A DNA stretch of 41,764 nt from a virus: the IMG/VR virus record IMGVR_UViG_3300042922_001469, positions 1 to 41,764 of that record; one strand, 5' to 3'. Both the position numbers and the translations under genes were made by a program. Shown one piece after another: positions 3,792 to 36,690 of this stretch. The first letter of the stretch is position 1. Every line of letters starts with the position of its first letter. The notes under the pieces were generated by a model. It saw nothing but the letters and a program-made list of their open reading frames with translations, had not been told where the DNA came from and searched no databases.

Positions 3792-3812
3792 GGAATGCAT
3801 CCTATAAATGGG

Positions 3813-4493
3813 TTATGCGGCTTGTTTTGCGAACACTGCCGGCAGGAAGAAAGCGAAGGGGTTTGATGCCGCAATTGTGATGGCGTAGAGCGTTCCGTTC
3901 GGGAAGTCCCACCAGCAATAAAGATCGCGAGGGATAGCGCTTCCAGAAGTCATTGGCATGCCGAAGGTGTTCAGCAGCATGAATTCGTTTTCGGGAAAGT
4001 TGAACGGAACGCTATAGAAGATCCGCGTCAGGCCTTGAGGGGTTGTGTCGTAGCGAACATATGTCCAGTTCTGGAATGCTCTGGTAAACGTTGCGTTCGG
4101 GGTGCCGGAATCAAACAGCAGCTTGCCGGCGCCATCCCACAAGCGCATCCCGTACTGAGCGATAGGCTGAGCACCAAACGCGGCTACAAAATAACGCCCG
4201 TTCAAGCCAGCAGTGTTCACGTCGTACGCCCTTACGTAAAAGCCTGTCCAGTTACCTGCAGAGCCGAGAAGACTCATGCGGCAAAGTCCCGCCACTCCGT
4301 TGATAGTGTCCGGTCGTACGAATACAAGCGGTGGCTCTTGGGATGTGACCGGCCGCGCGAACGTGGTAACCGATCCAAGCCCAGACTCTTGGTTCGGTGC
4401 GTATCGCCCTGAAGCGATGACCATCAGTCGTGCAAACTCTGAATCCAAAGTCACGACGTTATTGTTGTTTGTGAACTGAACGCCGTAGCTCAT
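3813..4493 (-). CDS. Virion protein behind J, larger member of an MSxG pair
   Basis: A 226-aa predicted beta-rich protein beginning MSYGVQFTNNNNVVTLDSEF. Its opening resembles that of the 107-aa neighbour upstream (MSFG..., then L-D-E/S and an R before a hydrophobic strand). The two are probably related by an old duplication, with this copy extended. It starts in a TGATG overlap with that neighbour. Being between J and the tail fibre it is probably a tail-tip or fibre-adaptor component. Small phage proteins that begin MSYG are common at this place; no function is established here. Confidence 0.7.
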   Translation of the reverse strand: MSYGVQFTNNNNVVTLDSEFARLMVIASGRYAPNQESGLGSVTTFARPVTSQEPPLVFVRPDTINGVAGLCRMSLLGSAGNWTGFYVRAYDVNTAGLNGRYFVAAFGAQPIAQYGMRLWDGAGKLLFDSGTPNATFTRAFQNWTYVRYDTTPQGLTRIFYSVPFNFPENEFMLLNTFGMPMTSGSAIPRDLYCWWDFPNGTLYAITIAASNPFAFFLPAVFAKQAA

Positions 4494-4816
4494 CAGCTCC
4501 ACCTCATTACTATCAAGCGCATGGTTCCAGACGACGTGGTGCTCGCCGCGTACGTCCGGGTGTAGTTGTAGACGCGGACGACTCCGTCGAGCATCTCGGT
4601 TTCGAACTGCATCTGATTCTGCGAATAGGTACCGACCGGAATGACGATTGCCGTTCCGTTGCCAGGGCCTACGCCGGGAACGGCGAAATCCTGCGTTCCT
4701 TTGCTGGCTCCAAGCGCGAAGGTCACTTGTACTGAAAGCACGACGCGAATCGTGAATGAGTTCTCATCCAGCTGGAGCGCCCCATCGGCGCCCCATATCC
4801 TTATGCCGAAGCTCAT
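4493..4816 (-). CDS. Small virion protein behind J, shorter member of the MSxG pair
   Basis: A 107-aa protein beginning MSFGIRIWGADGALQLDENS. The sequence is beta-rich and Gly/Thr-rich without charged clusters, as in phage adaptor or tip proteins. The ATG overlaps the TGA of J (ATGA at 4813-4816), so translation is coupled to J. Function is unknown; a tail-tip role is inferred from position only. Confidence 0.7.
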   Translation of the reverse strand: MSFGIRIWGADGALQLDENSFTIRVVLSVQVTFALGASKGTQDFAVPGVGPGNGTAIVIPVGTYSQNQMQFETEMLDGVVRVYNYTRTYAASTTSSGTMRLIVMRWS

Positions 4817-30059: not shown

Positions 30060-30843
30060 GGGGCGCCTCCGGGTACATATCGGGGGTGTGAGTCGGCAAA
30101 TTGTTGTAGGTCGAAGGCTTCCCGTTCTTCGCACCAGCACCTGGCAGCACAGAGTCGGGATAGATGTCCGACCAGCTGCTCGTGGTGGACTTATCCAGCA
30201 CGGCGTCCGGCTCGGGATGGTTGGCCAGCTTCTTGGCGATCAGCTCGCAGGCACGGAGTGTCAGAGGCGCCCGTTTGGCCTTCCGCATTTCGCAGAAGTC
30301 CGCCCACGCCTTTTCGGAAGCGTTCGCCGGTTTGGCAGTGAGCGGATCGAACTTGCCAGTCTTCCCTCGAGAGCCAGCAGACTTGTCTGCGCCTTCTTTT
30401 GGTTTATTAACGGATAGATGACGGATAGATGACGTATTGGGTGCAGCTGCTGCACCCCGTTCTGTCGTCATTTGCACCCCGTTCTGTTCTGAGCTGCACC
30501 CCGTCGCGTCTTCATCTGCACCCCGTTCGGAGCGGGGTGCATCTGGTGCACCCCGTTTTTCGATGAGGTCATACACCACCGGGCGACGGTCGTGGCGGTC
30601 GATGTATGCGGCCGCGATTGACTGGTTGCCACGGCGAATCAAGCCAGCAGACTCCAATGCATCCAGCTTGTAACGCACCGTGCGTTCGGAGAGACCGGTG
30701 TCGACCGCCAAGGTCAGGGCGGAAGGGAAGGCCCCACGCCCATCGCTGCCTGCGTAGTTGGCCAGGCAGAGCAGGACGTGCCGGCATGTGGAATCTTTGA
30801 TCTCCTGCTGTTCCAGCGCCCACACCATGGATTGGATGCTCAT
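30040..30843 (-). CDS. O-like replication initiator with HTH domain, origin inside
   Basis: A 267-aa initiator. Residues 1-95 form a helix-turn-helix domain (LLCLANYAGSDGRGAFPSALTLAVDTGLSERTVRYKLDALESAGLI). Residues 96-150 are a low-complexity linker written by the DNA iterons (repeated Ala/Gly/Glu/Arg). The C-terminal domain (KAWADFCEMRKAKRAPLT and following) would contact the helicase loader. This matches lambda O: N-terminal origin binding, origin within the gene, C-terminal helicase recruitment. It is coupled downstream to the DnaC-like gene. Confidence 0.87.
   Translation of the reverse strand: MSIQSMVWALEQQEIKDSTCRHVLLCLANYAGSDGRGAFPSALTLAVDTGLSERTVRYKLDALESAGLIRRGNQSIAAAYIDRHDRRPVVYDLIEKRGAPDAPRSERGADEDATGCSSEQNGVQMTTERGAAAAPNTSSIRHLSVNKPKEGADKSAGSRGKTGKFDPLTAKPANASEKAWADFCEMRKAKRAPLTLRACELIAKKLANHPEPDAVLDKSTTSSWSDIYPDSVLPGAGAKNGKPSTYNNLPTHTPDMYPEAPHGQTNF
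30396..30561. other. Phage replication origin: iterons plus AT-rich unwinding region
   Basis: Four direct copies of TGCACCCCGT begin at 30451, 30473, 30495 and 30517, exactly 22 bp apart. A fifth direct copy begins at 30547 and an inverted copy lies at 30531-30541. A partial inverted copy GGGTGCA is at 30439-30445. Beside them (30396-30440) is an AT-rich stretch with two tandem ACGGATAGATG units (30410-30431). Iterons next to an AT-rich block inside the initiator gene is the lambda ori plan. Confidence 0.85.
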
Positions 30844-33801: not shown

Positions 33802-33830
33802 ATAGTACCTTTGGCATTTTCACAAAGCAA
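33802..33830 (-). promoter_or_regulatory. Early promoter PR for the cro operon
   Basis: Minus strand: -35 TTGCTT (33830-33825), 17-bp spacer, -10 TACTAT (33807-33802). One operator covers the -10 and another touches the -35, so repressor binding would block it. Confidence 0.75.
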
Positions 33831-33866
33831 TACCTTTGGCATTTGTTAAACTATTACCGATGGGAA
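33805..33866. promoter_or_regulatory. Operator cluster of three 13-bp sites between cro and cI
   Basis: GTACCTTTGGCAT (33805-33817), ATACCTTTGGCAT (33830-33842) and TTACCGATGGGAA (33854-33866), spaced 25 and 24 bp. The best palindromic form, TTACCTTTGGTAA, occurs behind cI. The three-site plan parallels lambda OR1-OR3. The third site is the most diverged and lies between the cI -35 and -10. Confidence 0.8.
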
Positions 33867-33879
33867 TATTATCGACCGA
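33843..33879 (+). promoter_or_regulatory. cI maintenance promoter, leaderless start
   Basis: Plus strand: -35 TTGTTA (33843-33848), 18-bp spacer, -10 TATTAT (33867-33872), then six bases to the ATG at 33879. Transcription would begin at or next to the A of the start codon and no ribosome site is present, as for lambda cI from PRM. Confidence 0.65.
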
Positions 33880-34655
33880 TGAAAAAACCATTACCTGCTG
33901 ACCGCAAAGAAGAATGCCTACGTTTGAAGGCAATTTTCACAGCCAAAAAGAAACAGCTGAAGCTGACTCAGGAAAAACTGGCTGAGCAACTCGGCATCAA
34001 CCAAAGCTCTGTCTCACACTATCTGAACGGTGTGAATCCGCTGAACACCGAGATCGCGGCTGCATTCGCCAAAATTTTGGATGTGCCGGTTTCGGACTTC
34101 AGTCCGCGCTTAGCGGCGATCATAGAGATGGTCGCGTCGTCGCGCGTCACCGCAGACTCGTTTCGAACAACCTGGGCTAAAGCCGCTCGCATCATTGATG
34201 CCCCGCCACGCGAGCAATATGTCCTGATACCGCAGTATTTAGACGATAACTCTTTTGTTCCGAACGTGAACGACGAACATCGCGGACTAACTGAAGGCAT
34301 GGTGTTCAGGCGCGGCTGGCTCCAAGAAATGGGGGTTTCGTTTAGCAGTCTCAACATCGTCTACGCCGGCGACGACAGTATGGCCCCCCATATTTTGTCC
34401 GGCGACGTGGTCATGATTGACACGTACAAGCCGGCCCTAAAGGATGGCGAGGTCTATCTCGTCCGCATGCCTGACGGTAGGACTAGCGTCAGGCGGGTAG
34501 CGCAGCAAATTTCCGGAAACTGGACGCTCAGATGCGACAACCAGGACAAGCAGCTATTCCCCGACGAAGTTATCCCGAGTTCAGCAGCCGGCGATCTCCC
34601 ATTGATTGGAAGAGTGGTATGGCGCGGGGGGAGCGTGAGGGTATCCAGACCTTAG
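33879..34655 (+). CDS. cI: CI-like prophage repressor (HTH plus S24 peptidase-like domain)
   Basis: A 258-aa repressor. The helix-turn-helix lies at residues 29-52 (LTQEKLAEQLGINQSSVSHYLNG). The C-terminal domain has the LexA/S24 layout with the nucleophile Ser167 in GDDSMAPHILSGDVVMIDT. The general-base Lys expected in the strand after DGRTSV is Arg205 (SVRRVAQQ). No Ala-Gly dipeptide is present in the hinge (residues 75-140), where self-cleaving repressors are cut. It may therefore be unable to self-cleave under RecA. It maintains lysogeny through the operators on both sides. Confidence 0.9.
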   Translation: MKKPLPADRKEECLRLKAIFTAKKKQLKLTQEKLAEQLGINQSSVSHYLNGVNPLNTEIAAAFAKILDVPVSDFSPRLAAIIEMVASSRVTADSFRTTWAKAARIIDAPPREQYVLIPQYLDDNSFVPNVNDEHRGLTEGMVFRRGWLQEMGVSFSSLNIVYAGDDSMAPHILSGDVVMIDTYKPALKDGEVYLVRMPDGRTSVRRVAQQISGNWTLRCDNQDKQLFPDEVIPSSAAGDLPLIGRVVWRGGSVRVSRP

Positions 34656-34708: not shown

Positions 34709-34749
34709 TTGCCAAAGGTATTTACTAAAATAATTACCTTTGGTAATTT
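34709..34749 (+). promoter_or_regulatory. Second early promoter (PL-like) with two operators
   Basis: Operators TTGCCAAAGGTAT (34709-34721, inverse orientation) and TTACCTTTGGTAA (34734-34746, perfect half-sites), 25 bp apart. A promoter TTTACT (34721-34726), 17-bp spacer, TAATTT (34744-34749) is overlapped by both; TTGCCA/TAATTA with a 16-bp spacer is an alternative. It would drive the LuxR-type gene through integrase and is repressed by the same proteins as PR. Confidence 0.75.
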
Positions 34750-34782
34750 TACTCCATCGCATCTAGCATGGAGCCTCACGAA

Positions 34783-35163
34783 ATGACTACCAGCACTCTC
34801 ACCGCCGGTAACTGGCAGGGCAACCTCAAGATGGGCCTGGCTCCTCGCGAGCTTGAAGCCACCCTGTGGGCTGCTGCCGATATGACGGTGAAGCAAATTG
34901 GTCGTGCAATGGGTATCAGTCCAGCCACCGCTGAAAAACGTCTTGAAAGCGCCCGCTTCAAGCTTGGTGTCAAAACGATGCGCGGCCTCGTGATGGAGGC
35001 ATTCAAGCGTCAGATCATCGCGCCCCTCGTCGTCCTGCTGTGCATGGTGATGGTCGCCCAGCAAGCTAACACCGAACAGTTCGGGCGCATCCGCCGCCCA
35101 AGTGAGCGTCGTGCAGAAGTGCGCCTGACCGTCCGCCGAGCAGAGGCATGCGCAATCGCTTGA
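34783..35163 (+). CDS. LuxR-type HTH protein with C-terminal hydrophobic helix
   Basis: A 126-aa protein. Residues 18-75 are a GerE/LuxR-type DNA-binding domain (LAPRELEATLWAAADMTVKQIGRAMGISPATAEKRLESARFKLGV). No receiver or autoinducer domain is present. A hydrophobic stretch (IIAPLVVLLCMVMVAQQ, about residues 80-98) may anchor it in the membrane, followed by an Arg-rich tail. GGAG is 9 bases before the ATG at 34783. It is first in the operator-controlled left arm, so it is an early regulator; targets are unknown. Confidence 0.8.
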   Translation: MTTSTLTAGNWQGNLKMGLAPRELEATLWAAADMTVKQIGRAMGISPATAEKRLESARFKLGVKTMRGLVMEAFKRQIIAPLVVLLCMVMVAQQANTEQFGRIRRPSERRAEVRLTVRRAEACAIA

Positions 35164-35495
35164 TCAGCGGCGAGCTCATTTGCGGAGAGGGTTGTCCGGT
35201 GCGCAAGCACAACGTGGCACGGCCAGGTACGGCGCGGCTGGGCTCGGCAAGGCTGGGTAACGCAAGGGCTGTTTACAGCGGTCTGCCCCTTCTACGAGGG
35301 GGCTTTCCGGTGGCAATAGTCACTTATGGCGGGGCGAGGCCTGGTGCGGCTAGGTTGGGCGAGCTGGGGTATGGCATGGGCTGCTGGTCAGCGTACTGGG
35401 TTTTCTTTCGAGAACTCAGTGCGGTGCGAAAGCATCTCACGGCACGGCGAGGCAAGGCGGGGTCCGGCGTGGCTCGGCGTGGCTTGGCAAGGGCG
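35164..35495 (+). repeat. Three-unit repeat, each unit ending in eleven GGCNN pentamers
   Basis: Pentamer arrays occupy 35216-35270, 35328-35382 and 35441-35495. Each has exactly eleven 5-bp steps of the form GGCNN (a few GGT or GCT variants), and the starts are 112 and 113 bp apart. Each array is preceded by a 50-58 bp linker ending in a C-GGTG-C/G-G-x-AA-type motif. The second linker has the stem GCCCC/GGGGC, the third a 10-bp imperfect stem over TTTC. An open frame crosses all of it (35148-35540) and reads as ARLGx pentapeptides because 3 and 5 give a 15-bp period; I regard this as a by-product. Nothing else is coded here. Confidence 0.85.
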
Positions 35496-35511
35496 GTAAG
35501 CCGCAGCGAGG

Positions 35512-35570
35512 TCACTGGCGCTCATCCAGTGACAACCTGAAAGCCGCTTCGCTGAGGCTGCTTTCAGGTT
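35512..35570 (+). other. Two stable hairpins in the leader of the next gene
   Basis: TCACTGG/CCAGTGA (35512-35518 with 35526-35532) and the perfect 11-bp stem AACCTGAAAGC/GCTTTCAGGTT (35534-35544 with 35560-35570). No T tract follows the second, so this is not a simple terminator. They lie 75 bp before the ATG of the 188-aa gene and may control its mRNA. Confidence 0.7.
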
Positions 35571-35644
35571 CACCAGATCGCATATCACCGTGCAGGGCAT
35601 AGGGCTCATAGGCACACGAGCGATCCGCACAGAGAGGCATCATC

Positions 35645-36211
35645 ATGCAAGTCATCAAAGTGAAAATCGTCGGAACTCGGCCCTTGCTTCAGCATGCGGA
35701 CGTCTTCGCGGACCCGCTCAATAAATTGACCAAAGCGCACAAGCAGCTGACGGCAAAACGCAAAAAGTCGGATGAGGATCACGAGCTGATTGCTCGTAGC
35801 GAATGGCGTGGTGGGCTTTACTTCGATGACGATATCGGCCCGTTCTTGCCTGGCGTGAACATCGAATCCGCCTTGGTCGCTGGCGGCAAACTGTCGAAGC
35901 TCGGCTCACAGCTCAAGCGCTCGGTCGAGATCATGGACACCCGGTGCCCACTGATTTATGAGGGTCCACGCACCGTTGAGGGTCTGTGGGATTCCGCATT
36001 CTACGATGCACGCTCGGTCAAAGTCGGTACCGCCCGGATCACTCGATATCGCCCACTGTTTCGCGAATGGTCGACAACCTGCGAGATCGCGTTTGATCAG
36101 GAATCGATTGACCGCGCCCAGGTCTTGAAATGTCTGGAAGACGCCGGCCAATACTGCGGCGTCGGCGATTACCGCCCGAAGTTTGGCCGCTTCACCGTAG
36201 AGGTGTTGTGA
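35645..36211 (+). CDS. Left-arm early protein, 188 aa
   Basis: A 188-aa protein (MQVIKVKIVGTRPLLQHADVF...), beta-rich with GGLYFDDDIGPFLPGVNIESALVAGGKLSKLG and a conserved-looking end GQYCGVGDYRPKFGRFTVEVL. AGAGG precedes the ATG by 7 bases. I do not recognise a family with known function. Phages carry similar proteins with a G-x-G-D-x-R-P-x-x-G-R-F end in early regions. It is translationally coupled to the next gene (TGATG). Confidence 0.72.
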   Translation: MQVIKVKIVGTRPLLQHADVFADPLNKLTKAHKQLTAKRKKSDEDHELIARSEWRGGLYFDDDIGPFLPGVNIESALVAGGKLSKLGSQLKRSVEIMDTRCPLIYEGPRTVEGLWDSAFYDARSVKVGTARITRYRPLFREWSTTCEIAFDQESIDRAQVLKCLEDAGQYCGVGDYRPKFGRFTVEVL

Positions 36212-36690
36212 TGAGTATCGTCCCTCTGAAACCGAATACCTGGAGCTTGGACAAGGCTCTGGAGCTGTTCTTCGCCGACAATTTCGCCGACGGCCAACTG
36301 ATCAGCCATGCCTGGCTGGAATGGGCGCTGAATTTGCCTAAGCCGAAGACAGCTCAGGAGATGGTCAACTGCCAGTTCGTGATCCTTGATCGCGTCGAGC
36401 AATTCAAATCCGCCCTGCTCACTCAGCATCAGATTTTTGTGGTTTCTGTGCGTGGTCAAGGTTATCGAATTGTTCCGCCGTCTGATCAGGCATTCATCGC
36501 TGTAGACACTGCAATGCGCGGCGTGCGCCGGGAGTTCAGCAAGTGCCAGGAAGTGATGAAGAACACGCGATTTGCCGAGCTGGATGCTGATCAGGCGAAG
36601 CGACACACCGACGCTCAGGTGAAAGTCTCAGCACTTACCGGGATGGTAGGCAAGGCAAAGCGGGAAGTGTTCAGCCTGTTCAAGGCATAA
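36211..36690 (+). CDS. Left-arm early protein with wing-like RGQGYR motif, 159 aa
   Basis: A 159-aa protein (MSIVPLKPNTWSLDKALELFFADN...). Residues 45-85, VILDRVEQFKSALLTQHQIFVVSVRGQGYRIVPP, resemble the last helix and wing of winged-helix DNA-binding domains, in which an R-G-x-G-Y-R hairpin is typical. The C-terminal part is a long basic helix. It overlaps its neighbour and probably works with it. DNA binding is inferred only from the motif. Confidence 0.68.
   Translation: MSIVPLKPNTWSLDKALELFFADNFADGQLISHAWLEWALNLPKPKTAQEMVNCQFVILDRVEQFKSALLTQHQIFVVSVRGQGYRIVPPSDQAFIAVDTAMRGVRREFSKCQEVMKNTRFAELDADQAKRHTDAQVKVSALTGMVGKAKREVFSLFKA

Follow-up and report, generated by a model that had tools for sequence, protein, structure and literature searches.

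A repeat block upstream of vipr in a Pseudomonas-type temperate phage very probably encodes three VIPR guide RNAs aimed at rival prophages

The window, that is, the whole stretch of DNA analysed, comprises the 41,764 bases of an IMG/VR virus record and has a gene order of the Pseudomonas temperate phage type. Around the repeat block the order is cI, a gene coding a LuxR-type helix-turn-helix protein, the block itself, phrog_4652 and phrog_5926, with the excisionase and integrase genes further along. The replication-initiation-like gene contains a 22-bp tandem repeat (3.6 copies, window 30450–30528). The features relevant to the description below are the following.

33879..34655, plus strand: cI repressor gene of the prophage itself, diverged at the site that guide 1 targets in rivals.
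34712..34743, no strand assigned: operator-like dyad, an inverted TACCTTTGG pair, ahead of the LuxR-vrRNA-vipr-vap run.
34768..35163, plus strand: LuxR-type helix-turn-helix gene, phrog_3282, upstream of the block and not specific to VIPR.
35164..35213, plus strand: leader ahead of array 1, tail-like (CAGCGG-hairpin-CCGGTGCGCAAGCAC); an element also present ahead of the first array in loci L124, L125, L127 and others.
35214..35265, plus strand: guide tract of candidate vrRNA 1, GT and ten GGY-NN steps (AC CA AC GC TG TC AA TG AA AA).
35266..35325, plus strand: tail of candidate vrRNA 1, three helices, with covariation over 50 tails.
35326..35377, plus strand: guide tract of candidate vrRNA 2, AT and ten steps (GG GA CT GC TA TG GA GG AT AT).
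35378..35438, plus strand: tail of candidate vrRNA 2, sharing the fold of the vrRNA 1 tail.
35439..35490, plus strand: guide tract of candidate vrRNA 3, AC and ten steps (AC GA AA GG CC GT TC GT TT AA).
35491..35575, plus strand: terminal tail of candidate vrRNA 3 (GGGCGGTAAGCCGC) and two large hairpins; relatives have an equivalent GGGCGGTAATCCGC and two hairpins.
35645..36211, plus strand: vipr, phrog_4652, coding a RAMP-type protein of 188 aa (phmmer, profile and Foldseek searches).
36208..36690, plus strand: probable vap, phrog_5926, coding about 160 aa with a predicted winged helix and a helical region; adjoins vipr.

The arrays begin at 35216, 35328 and 35441 and are spaced by 112 and 113 bp, as an earlier note made from the letters alone had reported. 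They outscore all other GGCNN runs on the two strands of the window (14, 10 and 18), and in 60 order-2 Markov simulations of the window the score never exceeded 8. The earlier note described exactly eleven GGCNN pentamers in each unit. The 5-base repeat is correct, but the repeated motif is GGY rather than GGC (GGC/GGT/other steps are 7/2/1 in array 1, 6/3/1 in array 2 and 9/1/0 in array 3) and each array has ten GGY-NN steps, the pentamer counted as the eleventh (GGGCT or GGGCG) being the start of the structured tail. Over 81 distinct units of the family the number of steps is 10 in 29, 11 in 20, 12 in 15 and 9 in 7, with a full range of 7–16. The equal number in the three arrays of the window is therefore a chance event within a narrow range. 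Perfect GGY is found in 85% of the family steps and about 15% deviate; the 5-base phase and the GGY identity are what stays fixed in the family. Equal array length had been read as selection on the phase, and variable, out-of-phase counts in related phages had been named in advance as the observation that would overturn this reading. The phase is indeed selected and holds in the relatives while the other bases vary, whereas a fixed number of steps does not survive the comparison.

The product of vipr is homologous over residues 1–188 to PDB entry 36pp_D, ‘SUSP1 Vipr protein’ (phmmer, E=4.2e-53), which is its sole match among all solved structures, and a profile search against SUSP1 Vipr gave E=8.6e-58. 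It was this PDB match that pointed to VIPR. VIPR, described in a 2026 preprint (April 2026; PMC13142463), combines a RAMP-type protein, Vipr, with vrRNAs that carry 9–16 YNNGG repeats and a structured tail, and whose NN dinucleotides read DNA with a one-base skip (PMC13142463). Foldseek searches with the predicted Vipr model (AlphaFold, low confidence, pLDDT 66) have Csm3/Cas7 as top matches, which lends ancillary support. The vipr product is thus the RAMP homologue expected at a VIPR locus. Pfam searches returned no match for vipr or vap. The vap gene lies directly 3’ of vipr in 27 loci. Its product is modelled with pLDDT 89, and the best viral fold match is with a protein from Escherichia phage adrianh, a phage that also encodes a Vipr homologue. 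Vap proteins of type II systems are predicted to bind DNA; here the winged-helix match in the PDB is weak (E=0.15) and at most hints that the vap product may do so. In locus L145 the vipr frame (4001–4565) is frameshifted and contains stops when read straight, which may reflect a broken system or a sequencing error.

Arrays and vipr are linked in both directions of search. With the Vipr protein as sole query, 22 viral contigs were retrieved, and in these the pentamer arrays are found immediately 5’ of vipr. Conversely, 77 of the 120 viral stretches retrieved by the GGCNN x7 pattern alone (L002–L121) have a Vipr homologue at E<=1e-3; the corresponding counts are 0/120 with the DNA reversed and 1/49 among control loci, that one being VIPR phage L134. 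By itself, this DNA pattern detects VIPR loci efficiently. The other 43 stretches, where Vipr is absent at this threshold, may be truncated, hold distant VIPR types or be chance matches. The number of units varies from 1 to 8 per locus. In a distant relative, L144, a single array precedes vipr and two others lie over 1 kb downstream (3854, 5077 and 5173), an arrangement that differs from the Pseudomonas loci. The earlier note had placed the arrays next to a LuxR-type gene. This context is non-specific, as phrog_3282 also adjoins cI in L156 and L158, prophages of a similar kind in which no arrays were seen.

The linkers between the arrays and the two hairpins after the last one, both proposed from the letters alone, are real. 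Fifty distinct linkers could be aligned and share a tail of three helices formed by GCTG/CAGC, a long middle stem and GGTG/CACC. The bases pair in 95.6% of the cells of this alignment, and the covariation asked for by the earlier note is strong: the score is 0.506 against 0.199 in shuffled alignments, cells changed on both sides number 153 against 54, and compensatory change is found in 9 of the 10 middle-stem pairs. Sliding the structure by one base makes the pairing collapse. The conserved structured 3’ tail that characterises VIPR is present at this locus. The last unit of each locus has a different tail, GGGCGGTAATCCGC in most cases, followed by two hairpins, which accounts for the two large hairpins seen in the window. 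The tail-like leader ahead of array 1 may take part in processing. A search of the block against Rfam returned no family.

The decoding rule was examined by comparing 77 vrRNAs of the family with the DNA of the retrieved loci and genomes, arrays being masked and the NN pairs being read with one or another number of skipped bases. With a skip of one base, 5 guides have a site with <=1 mismatch and 12 have one with <=2, compared to 0.0 and 0.6 for order-shuffled guides. Skips of 0, 2 and 3 bases gave 3, 0 and 2 guides with <=2 mismatches, without a clear excess. The skip-1 targets across the family include cI, the early gene hit by guide 2 of the window, vipr, the LuxR-type gene and a csrA-like gene of related prophages, these names being based in part on reading of the sequence. 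Both the rule and the target classes agree with those reported for VIPR (PMC13142463) and were obtained independently. Certain VIPR prophages have guides that fit vipr genes of others: the L130 guide at 3801 fits vipr of L127–L129 and the L131 guide at 3806 fits that of L134, in both cases codon-phased and with 1–2 mismatches.

Reading guide 1 of the window from the dinucleotide that precedes the first GGC through step eight (GTxACxCAxACxGCxTGxTCxAAxTG) gives nine dinucleotides, for which viral contigs contain 16 exact matches against about 1 expected by chance; the matches of any one guide, being homologous copies of a single gene, do not count as independent events. All 16 lie at a single site of the cI gene, antisense, at GVQFDQAVCVT of the S24 region (the family was assigned on L156), and the dinucleotides fall on codon positions 1–2. 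The tenth dinucleotide of the guide is AA, and AC is found in all 16 targets, giving 19/20. The register of the guide ends was examined as well. Read as steps 1–9, without the upstream dinucleotide, guide 1 has no exact match in viral contigs; with up to 2 mismatches this reading gave six matches in 399 Pseudomonas genomes, close to three in the reversed control, and was set aside. The cI matches appear when the upstream dinucleotide is added and the tenth is dropped. Across the family, the dinucleotide preceding the first GGY fits targets in part, while the last one before GGGC is AA in 55 of the 81 units and rarely fits them. The last dinucleotide of the tract seems to be part of the tail and not of the guide.

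Guide 2 (GGxGAxCTxGCxTAxTGxGAxGGxAT) has 7 exact matches in viral contigs, against a chance expectation of 1–2, and all 7 are in one small gene after cro, phrog_14643, at MGELAYCDGM, in the sense direction. The full 20/20 site is present in 1 of the 399 Pseudomonas genomes. Every target of guides 1 and 2 is codon-phased, so that the skipped base is the wobble position; bases vary at 9 of 9 skip positions for guide 1 and at 7 of 10 for guide 2, as synonymous sites do. No exact match was found for guide 3. Its best coding matches (18/20) are in a small gene, phrog_7732, beside the replication gene of Pseudomonas prophages, and in some genomes and contigs this site is 2–3 kb from the guide 2 site. 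Nine genome matches have <=2 mismatches. Four of them lie in the phrog_7732 gene; the rest, including a non-coding palindrome-like ACCGAAAA...TTTTCGGT, were left uncounted. An eight-dinucleotide pattern of guide 3 gave four matches in unrelated contexts, below the 15–31 expected by chance, and was likewise not counted. The matched sequences thus point to the cI, phrog_14643 and phrog_7732 genes of Pseudomonas prophages as the likely targets, less firmly for guide 3. Among these prophages is G401/L134, in which the sites of guides 1 and 2 each match at 19/20 and which has a VIPR locus of its own in the same gene order. Within the window, sites for its own guides never exceed 15/20, and its CI reads EMGVSFSSLNIVYAGDDSM at the place where rivals have NQGVQFDQAVCVTVHGxSM.

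These matches bear on the other readings of the block. It could act in cis as the leader RNA of the early operon, serving antitermination or mRNA control, in which the pentamers are a track for protein binding. Such a leader would suit a block that is strongly structured (z = -4.0), stands 5’ of vipr in the same orientation and has a regulator gene in its operon. However, the NN dinucleotides differ fully between units and yet, once decoded, fit genes of rival phages far above chance, which a cis element does not need; the variation in unit number from locus to locus also speaks against it, and this reading is very improbable. Of the functions offered by the earlier note, RNA acting with a phage protein was right, the protein being Vipr and the RNA its guide, while antitermination, mRNA control and DNA bending find no support. 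Slightly less probable still is a repeat devoid of guide function, prone to slippage or recombination or forming a half-turn-periodic binding track on the DNA. Five bp comes close to half a turn of the helix, and a comparison of relatives shows units duplicated as modules. The units, however, are not slippage products of each other, their variable bases spell out matches to genes of rivals that are in phase with the codons, and the folded tail covaries as RNA. That the frame 35148–35540 codes for a repetitive protein is hardly credible, its 130 codons being open by chance in the window because GGY pentamers are stop-poor by composition, while it has no family match in PHROGs or Pfam and most relatives have stops in all three frames across the arrays, in line with the earlier view of the block as non-coding.

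The preferred reading, to which a probability of about 0.94 can be given, is that the block encodes three VIPR vrRNAs that are read by Vipr and whose guides aim at genes of rival Pseudomonas prophages. Its computed basis is the homology and fold of Vipr, the two-way linkage, the covariation of the tails, the skip-one rule and the codon-phased targets; transcription, processing, assembly of the complex and repression are steps that we infer. Most likely, a single transcript from the promoter region ahead of 34768 would carry the vrRNAs together with the LuxR-type gene, vipr and vap. By analogy with the described systems (PMC13142463), the transcript would be processed at the tails and then assembled with Vipr. 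The protein would line the tract with one subunit per repeat, held by GGY, and each NN pair would read two bases of the double-stranded DNA target, one base being skipped between pairs. Guide 1 would direct the complex to the antisense strand of cI in rival Pseudomonas prophages, guide 2 to the small early gene after cro and guide 3, probably, to the small regulator gene immediately ahead of the replication gene. Binding would repress these three genes of the rival and so interfere with competing prophages. The TACCTTTGG half-site of the dyad is also found twice between cro and cI, at 33806 and 33831 (window 33806–33839). These half-sites are probably operators common to the lysis-lysogeny switch and the VIPR operon, and their sequence suggests that CI or Cro may control the latter.

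All sequence-testable defining features of VIPR are present at the locus, save that support for DNA binding by the vap product is weak; in particular, its three ten-step arrays lie within the 9–16 GGY/NN repeats of such systems. The earlier note knew of no named element of this form, a fair statement when no tools are at hand, and a literature search on pentanucleotide GGC repeats in phages found nothing useful; the element does have a name, the vrRNA of VIPR (PMC13142463). The window has in common with the type II VIPR of Escherichia phage SUSP1 and of a Pseudomonas fulva prophage (PMC13142463; PDB 36pp) the full-length Vipr homology, the tandem GGY/NN repeats, the structured 3’ tail, several vrRNAs beside vipr and a small adjacent gene, probably vap. 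The wobble skip is likewise shared, as are targets in Pseudomonas prophages, mostly lysis-lysogeny regulators and some of them in VIPR phages. Unlike SUSP1, whose sequence is divergent and which has one vrRNA upstream and three downstream of vipr, the window has its three vrRNAs all upstream. The likeness to the RAMP proteins of class 1 CRISPR-Cas (Csm3/Cas7) lies in the predicted fold and in periodic binding along a guide RNA. However, the window has neither CRISPR repeats nor cas genes, the neighbours of vipr being cI, the LuxR-type gene, xis and int and the repeats being pentamers, and the guide information is carried by dinucleotides, not by a contiguous spacer. TIGR-Tas (PMC12045711) resembles VIPR in its phage-encoded tandem RNA array and guide-binding protein, but the Tas proteins are presented as a separate family, discovered by mining that started from a Cas9 guide-interaction domain and not RAMP-like.

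VIPR has been proposed to be older than CRISPR. In the P. fulva clade its targets are in resident Pseudomonas prophages (PMC13142463). In experiments of the same paper, guides to cI induced a resident lambda prophage and guides to cro blocked infection. The window locus is an independent check of VIPR from raw sequence, in which the array-protein link, the tail fold and the one-base-skip code recur. Added here are three guides with their likely natural targets, the covariation test of the tails and the evidence on the register of the guide ends. The concrete natural targets make a testable case of phage guide RNAs directed against the genetic switch of relatives. Tentatively, and with less than even odds, the three guides might form a coordinated kit against heteroimmune sister prophages that hits cI, the first early gene after cro and the pre-replication regulator, VIPR being switched together with the phage’s own lysis-lysogeny switch through the shared operator half-sites. 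Such a kit, if true, would extend immunity past the reach of the phage’s own repressor, also against other VIPR phages.
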